Shown here: in pieces, positions 13,349 through 31,264 of the stretch
Numbering within the stretch: the first letter of the stretch is position 1
How the letters are laid out: every line of letters starts with the position of its first letter
Assembly: GCA_945883435.1 (NCBI GenBank)
Contig: CAMCXK010000025.1
Coordinates: 1 to 42,333, forward strand
DNA: 42,333 nt
DNA from: Chthoniobacter flavus
Lineage (GTDB): Bacteria; Verrucomicrobiota; Verrucomicrobiia; Chthoniobacterales; Terrimicrobiaceae
Direction: 5' to 3'
The notes under the pieces: generated by a model
Told to the model about the DNA's origin: nothing
The model's input: the letters and a program-made list of their open reading frames with translations, nothing else
Database searches by the model: none
Position numbers and translations under genes: made by a program

Positions 13349-14500
13349 TTAGGCAACTTGACTCAAAAAAGCCCTTGGATTTTTTGAGAATTGAGGAAAA
13401 TTTTCGGGCGATATGATGATGAGCTTGGCTCCAGGGAAATGTTCTGCGAAGGCATTCAAGCCTTGAGCCGATTTTTTTCGGCCCGATTTCACTTCGATGG
13501 CATAAAGTTGTCCTTGATACTGATAGATAAAATCCACTTCGGCATTTTTTTCGCGCCAGTAGAAGAGTTCACCTGGCAATTGGAGCAATTCCGCTCCTAC
13601 AGCGAGTTCGAAGACCCGACCGCGCCGCTCGGAATCCGTGGTATCCATCTTGCCGGTCGCCATCGTGTGGAGCGCGGGACAGGCGGGAATCACTTTCGGG
13701 CTGGAACTGCGCGCCAGCCACGCTTTGGCGGAATATTTTTGGAGGGCATGGATCAAAAATGCTCCGCCATAGAGTTCGACGTAATATTTTATCAAATCGG
13801 TGTTTCCGCGATCCTGCAACTGTCCGAGCAGCTTGGTGTAGCTGATTTCCTGAGCGGGATAGTGACAGAGGATTTCAAAGGCTTGGCGGAACAAGGCAGG
13901 ATTGGCAACTTTTCGGTTCTGGAGGATATCCTTGCCGATGACGGCCTCGACGATAGATTCCTTCATGTAGGCATACCAGCGGTCGGCATCATCCTCAAAG
14001 GGAACCGCGCCGGGATAGCCGCCGAAGATCAGGTAGCGAGTCAGATCGTAGCCGAAAGCCTCGTGCAATTCGTTGTATCTCCATTGATATACGCGGATCA
14101 GTTCAAAACGCCCGGCGAGACTTTCCGTCAATCCGCTATGGAGTTGAAGCGCACTCGACCCCAAGAGAAGAACCCTCACTCGCTCCGTTTGGGAATCCCA
14201 GAGCGCCTTGATGGTTTCAGCCCAGTTGGGCACTTTTTGAATTTCATCAACGATGAGGAGGGCGCCATCACCCAAGGCCAAAGCTTTTTGCCATTGCTCC
14301 AATAACCAATTCCGGTCACTGACCAGTAAACCATCCGCATTGGCATAAAAAAAAGGCCCATTCCAACGCTGCAAGAGTTGCTTTACGCCCGTGGTCTTAC
14401 CGACTTGGCGAGGCCCAATCAGAACTTGAATGAGCACATCGCGAGAGCGGAAACGCTCTTCTAAAATCCCAACAAAAGCTCTTTCATAGGTCGGCAACAT
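13349..14500 (-). CDS. AAA ATPase with C-terminal DUF4143 domain (copy 2)
   Basis: 383 codons. Walker A IGPRQVGKTTG (about 28-38), Walker B ALLIVDEIQKVP (about 79-90), sensor text LLLGSSALQLHSGLTESLAGRFE, then DUF4143 ending in AEVDFIYQYQGQLYAIEVKSG, the nuclease-like E-V-D...E-V-K motif. Normal family length and apparently intact. Role unknown: proposals for the family include nucleic-acid-linked stress or defence functions, but nothing here proves one. Two 12-bp palindromes spaced 22 bases apart lie just upstream of its start and look like operators. It is followed upstream by a row of short palindromic repeats. Confidence 0.9.
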   Translation of the reverse strand: MLPTYERAFVGILEERFRSRDVLIQVLIGPRQVGKTTGVKQLLQRWNGPFFYANADGLLVSDRNWLLEQWQKALALGDGALLIVDEIQKVPNWAETIKALWDSQTERVRVLLLGSSALQLHSGLTESLAGRFELIRVYQWRYNELHEAFGYDLTRYLIFGGYPGAVPFEDDADRWYAYMKESIVEAVIGKDILQNRKVANPALFRQAFEILCHYPAQEISYTKLLGQLQDRGNTDLIKYYVELYGGAFLIHALQKYSAKAWLARSSSPKVIPACPALHTMATGKMDTTDSERRGRVFELAVGAELLQLPGELFYWREKNAEVDFIYQYQGQLYAIEVKSGRKKSAQGLNAFAEHFPGAKLIIISPENFPQFSKNPRAFLSQVA

Positions 14501-14552: not shown

Positions 14553-14606
14553 CTGAAAAATAGATTTTAGGTGTAAGAAGAAAAGCCGAATGCTTTTGGA
14601 CTCTAC

Positions 14607-14630
14607 TGTAGCGGCGGTCTATGACCGCCG
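14607..14630 (+). repeat. Short palindromic repeat, TGTAG + CGGCGGTC/GACCGCCG
   Basis: TGTAG followed by an 8-bp perfect dyad (14612-14619 and 14623-14630) around TAT. Same arms as the copies at 29201 and 30032. First of four such units within 260 bases. Confidence 0.85.
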
Positions 14631-14670
14631 ATGGTCAACCAAAGGAAGGATGGTTTTAGACGTTCTCAAT

Positions 14671-14693
14671 TGTAGCGCAGGCGTCTCGCCTGC
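14671..14693 (+). repeat. Short palindromic repeat, TGTAG + GCAGGCG/CGCCTGC
   Basis: Same TGTAGCG head as the unit at 14607, but the 7-bp arms differ on both sides in a matching way (14677-14683 and 14687-14693) around TCT. Confidence 0.85.
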
Positions 14694-14704
14694 TATGGTC
14701 TCGG

Positions 14705-14726
14705 GTAGCGCGCCCGCCTCGGGCGC
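14705..14726 (+). repeat. Short palindromic repeat, GTAGC + GCGCCCG/CGGGCGC
   Basis: Head GTAGC, perfect 7-bp arms at 14710-14716 and 14720-14726 around CCT. A third arm sequence in the same framework. Confidence 0.75.
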
Positions 14727-14841
14727 ACAACCACGCGCCTCGAGGGGTGATGCGAAACAATGCAGTCGAAGACCGATGGCTCGCTCTCAAACAGGTGAAC
14801 CGATCCGCACACGGCCGCGTCGGCCATGCTTTTTCTCAATC

Positions 14842-14864
14842 GTAGGTCAGGCGTCTCGCCTGAC
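14842..14864 (+). repeat. Short palindromic repeat, GTAG + GTCAGGCG/CGCCTGAC
   Basis: Head GTAG, perfect 8-bp arms at 14846-14853 and 14857-14864 around TCT. Between this unit and the one at 14705 nothing gene-like is seen; the whole 14590-14920 stretch is repeat-rich spacer at the end of the glycan cluster. Confidence 0.8.
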
Positions 14865-14944
14865 GGCGAAAACGGCATACCAACGCAGGCCTCCGGTTTG
14901 AAGCACACGACTCGGAAAGCGAAACACCAGCAGAACTTTTTTTA

Positions 14945-29200: not shown

Positions 29201-29224
29201 CTGCGGTCATAGACCGCCGCTACA
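29201..29224 (-). repeat. Short palindromic repeat, inverted copy left of wecG
   Basis: Reverse complement of TGTAGCGGCGGTCTATGACC plus GCAG; the same sequence as 14607-14630 and 30032-30055 except at the last arm bases. It ends one base before the stop codon of wecG. Confidence 0.85.
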
Positions 29225-29225
29225 T

Positions 29226-29999
29226 TTAAAACGCCGGGCTCGATAAATTAGGCTTGGTTGAGACCAGTTCTTTGAGCAGGTAATACAGAAAGAGCGAGTT
29301 CCAGTAAAGGTAGCGTCCTGCGAGGCGGCGGGGTTCGCTGGCGAGGCGGTAGGCCCAAGTCAGGCCGAGGCGTTGCATCCACGCGGGGGCATCGGGTTTT
29401 GTGCCCGCATTAACATCGAAGGCGAAGCCGACGGCGAGGAGGATGCCGGCGGGGAGGAGGGGTTTGAGGCGATGGATGAGGTGGTATTGCTTGGGGGTGC
29501 CGAGTCCGATCCAGAGGAAGTCGGGGCCCAGTGTTTGTAGTTCTCGAAAGACTTTGACATCATCCTCAAATATGCCTTTGGCGCTGCACTTTCCGTGGTA
29601 GGAACCAACGATTTTGAGATTCGGATTTCTTTCGAGTAGGCGTTCCCGAAGTTTGGCTCCGCATTCTGGACTGCCGCCGAGGAAATAGTGGGAAAACTCA
29701 GCCGGACAGGTGGCCAGGAATTTCCTCATAAACGTAGGGCCATAAACACGATCGCGGAGCGCGGCACCTTGGCGGTTCAGGCACCAGATCAAGGGCATTC
29801 CATCGGGAATGAAAAGGTCGAAGTGGGCGGTGGTTGCTGCGAATGTTGGCTCATGCCGCCGCATGGTGACGATGTGAGTGTTGGAAAAATCGACCGCGTA
29901 GGGACCGGGTTGGCGACAACGAGCGAGGAGGTGTGCGCCTAGGGTTTCGTAGTCGGTGCAGGTGAGATCGGTGGAGAGAACGCGGCGGGTTGAGGGCAT
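29226..29999 (-). CDS. wecG: WecG/TagA/CpsF-family glycosyltransferase (GT26)
   Basis: 257 codons. GT26 pattern: VDFSNTHIVTMRRHEPTF (N-T/S-H in place of the usual N-x-D loop), FIPDGMPLIWCLN (D-G-x-P), VYGPTFMRKFLA, HYFLGGSPECGAKLRERLLERNP, IVGSYHGKCS, FLWIGLGTPKQYHLIHRL and ILLAVGFAFDVNAGTKPDAPAWMQRLGLTWAYRLASEPRRLAGRYL, which is the conserved C-terminal half. Members add ManNAcA or a related sugar to a polyprenyl-linked glycan early in assembly. It is GC-rich and sits outside the AT-rich cluster, between inverted palindromic repeats on both sides. The symbol marks the family, not a proven substrate. Confidence 0.87.
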   Translation of the reverse strand: MPSTRRVLSTDLTCTDYETLGAHLLARCRQPGPYAVDFSNTHIVTMRRHEPTFAATTAHFDLFIPDGMPLIWCLNRQGAALRDRVYGPTFMRKFLATCPAEFSHYFLGGSPECGAKLRERLLERNPNLKIVGSYHGKCSAKGIFEDDVKVFRELQTLGPDFLWIGLGTPKQYHLIHRLKPLLPAGILLAVGFAFDVNAGTKPDAPAWMQRLGLTWAYRLASEPRRLAGRYLYWNSLFLYYLLKELVSTKPNLSSPAF

Positions 30000-30031: not shown

Positions 30032-30055
30032 TGTAGCGGCGGTCTATGACCGCCG
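30032..30055 (+). repeat. Short palindromic repeat, copy right of wecG
   Basis: TGTAGCGGCGGTCTATGACC plus GCCG, identical to 14607-14630 and inverted relative to 29201-29224. The 3' end of the ATPase copy 3 gene runs into it and takes its stop codon from it. Confidence 0.88.
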
Positions 30056-31264
30056 GGAGTGCCGATTTTCGGCGGTCACAGACGCGCCGCTAAAGGGGGG
30101 GCGGAGAATTTTTAGTGCGGCGTCGCGGAAATAAAGGATTTCTGTTTTGTCACTGCGCTGGAAGGGGTGGCCGTTGTAAATAAGGAATGTTTTTAGGAAT
30201 ACATTGTCCATTAGTTTTTTGATGCGGGAAATTCCTTTCAATAGGCTCGCATTGAATGTGGCGCAGGATTTGATTTCCATCGCAAGGATTTCGCGTCCCT
30301 CCATGACCAGCAAATCAACCTCGTTATCGTTGCTGTCACGAAAAAAATAGAAGTCTGCGATACGGCCTCGATTCCATCGTTCCTTCAAAAACTCCAAAAT
30401 AATCAGGTTTTCAAAAATGCCGCCTACCAGTGGATCTCGCGTCACTTGCTCGGGTTCCCGGATTCCTAGGAGGAAGCACAGGAGACCAACATCCGTGAAG
30501 TAGTATTTAGGATTTTTGACCACGCGTTTCCCGAAATTTTCGAAGTAGGGCTGGAGTTTGAAAATGAGGAATGAGGCTTCCAGGATGGAAAGCCAACTGC
30601 GCACCGTCTTGGAGTCAACCCCGACATCATTTGCCAGTGAACTATAGTCGATCAGCTGGCCCGTGCGGCCGGCCAGCAATTTGATAAATTTTTCAAAAAG
30701 GGAGGCGTTTTTTAGGTCAATCAATTGACGCACATCGCGTTCGACATATGTCTGGTAGTAGTTGGACCACGCGACGGTAGGTCGCAGGCCGGAGTCATAA
30801 ATCCGCGGAAGGAAGCCTCGAAAGGCATAGTCTTCAAATCGATCGTAGACTACGTCCGCGCTGGCCAGCTCGTTGATCGAAAAAGGCAAGAGACGCAAGA
30901 GGGCGGTGCGACCGGCAAGGGATTGGGAAACGGCTCCCCGCAATTCCAATTGATGCGAGCCTGTAAGCACGAAGCGTCCATTTCGTTTTTCGCTGTCGAC
31001 GATGTCTTGAATATAGCTCAAAAGGCTTGGCACCCTTTGAATTTCATCGATGACGACCTGTCCAGAAAACTGAGCCAAAAATGCTTTCGGGTCGGACTGT
31101 GCGAATTCGCGCGTCTCTGGCACTTCAAGATTTTCATAATCCGCTTCATGGCAAATGGATCTGGCGAGCGTTGTCTTGCCCGCCTGACGTGGGCCAAGGA
31201 TCGTCACAATGGGGTATTCCCCCAAAACGGTTTTCATTTCCGTTGCGATCTCGCGTGCAATCAT
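30044..31264 (-). CDS. AAA ATPase with C-terminal DUF4143 domain (copy 3)
   Basis: 406 codons from ATG 31264. Walker A LGPRQAGKTTLARS (about 23-36), Walker B QVVIDEIQRVPSL (about 69-81), sensor RFVLTGSHQLELRGAVSQSLAGRT, DUF4143 GGIFENLIILEFLKERW and the nuclease-like NEVDLLVMEGREILAMEIKS. Residues to about 388 look normal. The last 18 (PPFSGASVTAENRHSRRS) are encoded by the palindromic pair at 30032-30093, so the native end has been replaced. Only the tail beyond the known domain is affected, so the protein may still work. An 11-bp inverted repeat lies 12 bases upstream of the start. It is more distant from copies 1 and 2 than a recent duplication would be. Confidence 0.88.
   Translation of the reverse strand: MIAREIATEMKTVLGEYPIVTILGPRQAGKTTLARSICHEADYENLEVPETREFAQSDPKAFLAQFSGQVVIDEIQRVPSLLSYIQDIVDSEKRNGRFVLTGSHQLELRGAVSQSLAGRTALLRLLPFSINELASADVVYDRFEDYAFRGFLPRIYDSGLRPTVAWSNYYQTYVERDVRQLIDLKNASLFEKFIKLLAGRTGQLIDYSSLANDVGVDSKTVRSWLSILEASFLIFKLQPYFENFGKRVVKNPKYYFTDVGLLCFLLGIREPEQVTRDPLVGGIFENLIILEFLKERWNRGRIADFYFFRDSNDNEVDLLVMEGREILAMEIKSCATFNASLLKGISRIKKLMDNVFLKTFLIYNGHPFQRSDKTEILYFRDAALKILRPPFSGASVTAENRHSRRS
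30070..30093 (-). repeat. Short palindromic repeat, partner of 30032
   Basis: Minus-strand TAGCGGCGCGTCTGTGACC plus GCCG, a diverged copy facing the unit at 30032 across 14 bases. Together they form a longer dyad. Confidence 0.75.

Follow-up and report, generated by a model that had tools for sequence, protein, structure and literature searches.

The window analyzed here, the whole 42,333-nucleotide stretch that constitutes contig C25 in an assembly totalling 2.84 Mb over 126 contigs, carries around 14.6 kb an array of four short hairpins (Table 1). Very probably, these hairpins form a mosaic of REP elements that are non-autonomous, with each class recognized by a RAYT, and that landed side by side and now decay without selection for pairing. 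The array is ordinary in kind and belongs to the known REP superfamily. Under the mechanism that we propose, each REP class would have a dedicated RAYT (REP-associated tyrosine transposase), a nuclease of the Y1 HUH type that would recognize the folded single-stranded DNA hairpin, contact both its stem and its GTAG head, and cut next to a CT dinucleotide, and the units would spread into extragenic DNA either singly or as inverted pairs. Arm sequence and RAYT would evolve together, and the classes would therefore differ in their arms yet remain palindromic. Class CGGCGGTC (unit 1), class CAGGCG (units 2 and 4) and a GGAG-headed repeat (unit 3) would thus have landed together on the margin of a polysaccharide island of low GC, where the array units would now be decaying, their pairing no longer selected.

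Table 1. Hairpin units, associated repeats and neighboring genes in the window.
Feature	Position	Strand	Structure	Remarks
REP unit 1, class CGGCGGTC	14608..14630	+	GTAG[CGGCGGTC]tat[GACCGCCG]; CT directly 5'	CGGCGGTC class flanks RAYT genes in relatives
REP unit 2, class CAGGCG	14672..14694	+	GTAGc[GCAGGCG]tct[CGCCTGC]	
Unit 3	14705..14727	+	GTAGc[GCGCCCG]cct[CGGGCGC]	inside ~83-bp dispersed repeat, 14697-14779
REP unit 4, class CAGGCG	14842..14864	+	GTAG[GTCAGGCG]tct[CGCCTGAC]	opens ~80-90 bp repeat ending ~14931
Composite repeat with unit 1, ~60 bp	14581..14640	+	hairpin AAAAGC..GCTTTT upstream, then REP	
Further CGGCGGTC-class unit	29201..29223	-	one mismatch (GTAGCGGCGGTCTATGACCGCAG)	
Further CGGCGGTC-class unit	30033..30055	+	identical to unit 1	
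AAA_14-DUF4143 ATPase gene	13349..14500	-		108 bp from unit 1
WecG-family glycosyltransferase gene	29226..29999	-		
AAA_14-DUF4143 ATPase gene	30044..31264	-		3' end overlaps unit at 30033

All four hairpins that the initial annotation described at 14607-14864 are present on the forward strand, with the arms and three-base centers that it gave. Chance palindromes were ruled out as their origin, since none of 2000 dinucleotide-preserving shuffles yields even one GTAG dyad in 14600-14870, against the four observed; across the whole window five such dyads occur, and the shuffles give none (193 of 200) or one (7 of 200). Each unit is predicted to fold as single-stranded DNA into a single hairpin (-8.4 to -10.2 kcal/mol), and all four stand in direct orientation, with no inverted pairs in the array, an arrangement that speaks against the REP reading in that REPs mostly occur as inverted pairs. 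Units 2 and 4 constitute one class, because they share a 30-bp repeat that is 90% identical between them. The composite repeat that includes unit 1 has numerous copies in the genus (many in genome G007, others in G011, G013 and G014), and its upstream hairpin takes the form CCAAAAGC/GCTTTTGG in the sister species G006. The common GTAG(C/G) head claimed for all four units holds for units 1, 2 and 4 and breaks down for unit 3, the core of which is headed by GGAG in 15 of 16 matches, GTAG being confined to the window copy. Because the other 15 core matches and the G006 ortholog carry GGAG, the GTAG of unit 3 is probably a coincidental single mutation, which would place this unit outside the true GTAG REP frame. 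The array thus joins three repeat families, namely class CGGCGGTC, class CAGGCG and the GGAG-headed repeat. The ~83-bp repeat around unit 3 is dispersed through numerous genomes of the genus, in copies that carry the GGAG head along with several hairpins (e.g., L504, L505, L507 and L508), and GGAG-headed dyads with differing, matching arms are seen in genome G058; such dyads perhaps form a second palindrome superfamily.

Within the order, the GTAG frame is associated with palindromes, and with covarying arms, far beyond this one locus. In G058, a perfect 7-bp dyad follows GTAG at 2562 per 100,000 positions versus 101, i.e., 25 times the rate of the average tetramer. For a test of covariation, GTAG sites were picked solely by a match of the inner 4 bp and their outer pairs were then scored: the outer pairs are complementary in 77-86% at GTAG sites as against ~25% for scrambled heads, and all four are complementary at 280 of 428 GTAG sites compared with 1 of 239 for GATG. 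Many of these loci were retrieved via the CGGCGGTC unit, and 45-59% of outer pairs match once the CGGCGGTC class is dropped. The arms thus covary between REP classes, and the covariation among GTAG sites that the initial annotation had proposed to examine is strong. Of the perfect units, 215 have CT, the dinucleotide next to which RAYTs are expected to cut, immediately before GTAG, versus 6.3% of all GTAG sites. The excess of GTAG dyads over background, the complementarity of the outer pairs and the unit-flanked RAYTs described below together bear out the initial reading of the units as REP-type elements.

The later history of the array itself is recorded in an alignment (A2) of its two orthologous copies, from the window and from G006, in which changes are not polarized. 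The stem of unit 1 is unchanged, whereas unit 2 has one change, unit 3 four and unit 4 three; these eight fall in eight different pairs, each is one-sided and none is compensated; three leave a G-T wobble and the other five abolish the pairing. The units diverge as fast as the flanks (10 of 92 versus 48 of 402 positions). Since all eight stem changes are one-sided, uncompensated and at the flank rate, we see no sign of in-place selection for pairing at the array; there is likewise no sign of arm-to-arm copying in place. These changes weigh on the possibility that the hairpins are selected as RNA or DNA structures, such as terminators, mRNA stabilizers or regulators of DUF4143 genes, with arms that came to differ by compensatory change in place. 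Such selection would account for the perfect pairing of all four units, for the tolerance of G-T wobble in the stems of many copies, for the compensated class change from CGGCGGTC to CGGCGCTC, seen in 27 units, and for a T-A to G-C pair difference between unit 4 and its homologous copies in genome G010, but it sits poorly with the eight one-sided changes and with units that stand on the 5' side of one DUF4143 gene and on the 3' side of another, and we consider it very unlikely. An RNA element in particular was rejected on the uncompensated change in the G006 ortholog combined with an Rfam search of the window, which gave no match over the gathering score. Quasipalindrome correction, in which template switching copies one arm onto the other and so keeps repeats palindromic, would yield matching arms without selection and is compatible with the existence of compensated variants. 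However, one-sided changes persist in units 2, 3 and 4 of G006 and in an abundant subfamily with the right arm GACCGTCG, and correction of this kind does not predict an arm class that follows RAYT relatedness, making it an extremely improbable explanation. The initial suggestion that paired change reflects selection or copying at the level of the hairpin therefore applies to the origin of the classes, the arms of which follow RAYT relatedness, and does not extend to this locus, where classes stand side by side and the G006 changes are uncompensated. The differing yet matching arms seen here are mostly those of different repeat classes that are neighbors.

RAYTs were recognized by the model NF047646 (REP_Tyr_transpos; curated cut-off 80 bits) and by the motifs MPDHIH (HUH) and NPVRAGLV. 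The model PF01797 misses or underscores many RAYTs that the NCBIfam model NF047646 recovers, and a reading based on PF01797, by which several unit-rich genomes were RAYT-free and without linkage, was overturned by the latter. The proteins of loci L359, L344, L336 and L353 score 83.7-107.6 bits against NF047646 and display both motifs in alignment A1; by the same model, no RAYT was found in G048, G033 and G093 despite 60, 19 and 8 unit copies, respectively. Across the order, small RAYT genes usually have GTAG units within ~150 bp, and the arms of these units are class-specific. The search for a RAYT-type transposase that the initial annotation had recommended turned up genes flanked by CGGCGGTC units: one, from the same genus as the window (G005, L376), is surrounded by six such units, and others, like it above the cut-off, are in G079, G056 and G058; class CGGCGGTC stands beside a RAYT at L376, L359/L375, L368, L370, L492 and L481. 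RAYT-REP pairs of the CGGCGGTC class thus exist in the genus. The class also flanks RAYTs in the Acidobacteria gp5 genome AA68 and in a metagenome-assembled genome (MAG) labelled Betaproteobacteria. Among the RAYTs from Acidobacteria gp5 and the MAG labelled Betaproteobacteria, those at L481, L473, L492 and L215 are flanked by an identical or similar REP unit.

The identity of RAYT proteins correlates with the similarity of their flanking arms (r = 0.48 across 36 RAYTs; none of 2000 permutations is as high), as it does in a smaller set (r = 0.54 across 26 RAYTs, one duplicate included). RAYTs of the CGGCGGTC class lie near each other in a larger tree, the resolution of which stops short of the deepest forks. 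The window's own genome has three RAYTs: an intact one on C53 with GACCCCTC-type units on its flanks, a broken one on C78 that lacks units, and a large, divergent one on C89. None of these falls within the CGGCGGTC clade, perhaps owing to an assembly gap or to real loss; published genomes often show abundant REPs without their RAYT (PMC3686654). We infer that the mobilizing RAYT was active in an ancestor or within a different genome, and that the window units were cleaved and moved by such an enzyme would follow by analogy with published work on E. coli, S. maltophilia and Marinomonas. A search of the genus for a RAYT with CAGGCG-class flanks found none, the nearest such RAYT (L345) coming from a genome in another family. 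At L388 and L002:1806-1833, units of class GACCCCTC, which have GTAG at one terminus and CTAC at the opposite one, flank the RAYT of G010 and that of the window's own genome.

The CGGCGGTC unit is widely dispersed. With at most one mismatch, GTAGCGGCGGTCTATGACCGCCG occurs in 34 of 97 relatives at up to 180 copies per genome, as against no match for its reversed control pattern in the same relatives. Copies in relatives often form inverted pairs ~45 bp apart, and the window's own genome has only four. The extragenic position of the units was viewed case by case at single loci. The 23-bp unit is found in many Verrucomicrobiota and Acidobacteria MAGs, with ~205 copies in each of two gp5 Acidobacteria MAGs (the Acidobacteria and Betaproteobacteria assignments being the labels as given). 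MAG contamination is an unlikely source of these matches, given that the ~205 copies are scattered across numerous contigs and that AA68 has a unit-flanked RAYT. The presence in Acidobacteria MAGs of the identical unit together with a RAYT flanked by it is new. The exact unit also occurs in thirteen candidate viral contigs of IMG/VR (L321-L333).

The window's low-GC island (~11-31.5 kb; 41-52% GC, compared with ~60% in the sampled genome) contains polysaccharide genes and is bordered by AAA_14-DUF4143 ATPase genes, three in number, with units beside such genes. Two further CGGCGGTC-class copies, at 29201 and 30033, had escaped the initial annotation; oppositely oriented, they bracket the WecG-family glycosyltransferase gene, and the stop codon TAG of the DUF4143 gene at 30044 comes from the center of the second. 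A gene similar to the WecG-family gene adjoins a unit in G006 (L450), and the stop codon TGA of a DUF4143 gene in G004 (L116:1327-1349) is likewise supplied by a REP center. This arrangement raises the alternative that the units are not free REPs but the ends or target sites of cargo elements, i.e., REP-bracketed mobile cassettes with AAA_14-DUF4143 genes and also toxin-antitoxin genes. Within the genus, 12 of the ~77 CGGCGGTC copies have a DUF4143 gene no more than 1.5 kb away where genome-wide density predicts 0.71 (~17-fold), one DUF4143-unit locus being common to G000 and G006 by descent, which lessens the weight of this count for the cassettes. Without the window's own genome, nine copies are near such genes versus 0.68 expected. 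Unit pairs stand on both sides of one DUF4143 gene in G004, units alternate with two such genes in G007, and the PIN-like and YoeB-like ORFs near units (judged by eye) would also suit a cassette. Against this, units in the genus occupy DNA of below-average GC, so that units and DUF4143 genes may both simply prefer low-GC variable DNA; a crude GC correction (a hand estimate for low-GC DNA) raises the expectation to ~3 against the nine observed, an excess of ~3-fold. Moreover, the unit-rich genomes G058, G050, G048 and G089 have no DUF4143 gene. We therefore think it unlikely that the units are parts of such cassettes. DUF4143 proteins as universal mobilizers were ruled out by the same unit-rich genomes. 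That CGGCGGTC units of the genus occur near DUF4143 genes beyond expectation is a new observation, and the link is suggestive, not proven. Beside CGGCGGTC units of the genus there are also ORFs that by eye appear PIN-like, YoeB-like and nucleotidyltransferase-like (L455, L464, L466 and L451). A more speculative proposal, to which we give a small chance, is that REP units of this genus bracket accessory genes, chiefly the AAA_14-DUF4143 ATPases, and help to move them as a cargo cassette that borrows a RAYT in trans, with Verrucomicrobiota and Acidobacteriota exchanging the REP class along with its RAYT.

The mosaic of landed REP classes allows two readings of matching arms to be told apart: covariation between classes is real and tracks the transposase, and the single locus decays uncompensated. 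The analysis also identifies a REP class, together with its RAYT, within a Terrimicrobiaceae genus as well as among Acidobacteria MAGs, which should be useful for the study of REP-RAYT transfer between phyla, and it points to a connection of REPs with DUF4143 ATPase genes that lends itself to testing.

By definition, a REP has the tetranucleotide GTAG or GTGG at its 5' end and, behind it, a palindrome that varies in sequence (Nunvar 2010/2013), and this is the structure of units 1, 2 and 4 and of the copies at 29201 and 30033. The GTAG REP superfamily is known (Di Nocera 2013, PMC3733652; Nunvar 2010) and has been reported in the verrucomicrobium Opitutus terrae; its members have a GTAG end, a stem of 6-9 bp and a short loop, form dimers mostly 20-100 bp apart, and comprise several families per genome, with subfamilies that carry alternative complementary stem residues (PMC3733652). 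The units described here resemble that superfamily, for which 24 consensus sequences have been published, in their GTAG end, stem, short loop, dimers, multiple families and complementary subfamilies, a likeness drawn from the description of these features. In contrast to that report, the present classes come from another verrucomicrobial order and recur as identical units in Acidobacteria MAGs. In published work, TnpA-REP binds the folded single-stranded REP, needs the GTAG and the stem to differing degrees, and cuts at CT (PMC8266576). The REPtron Sm with its group 3 TnpA-REP shares with the present system the geometry of GTAG + 8 + 3 + 8, the CT site and a REP-flanked RAYT gene, whereas the arms and host phylum differ, the present system is described from its sequence, and the window units have no adjacent RAYT. 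In relatives, inverted pairs and mixed REP arrays recall REPINs and BIMEs (Bertels and Rainey 2011; Nunvar 2010); unlike these, the window array has direct orientation only, and in this genus a hairpin that is not a REP stands upstream of unit 1 and forms with it an element of ~60 bp in total.
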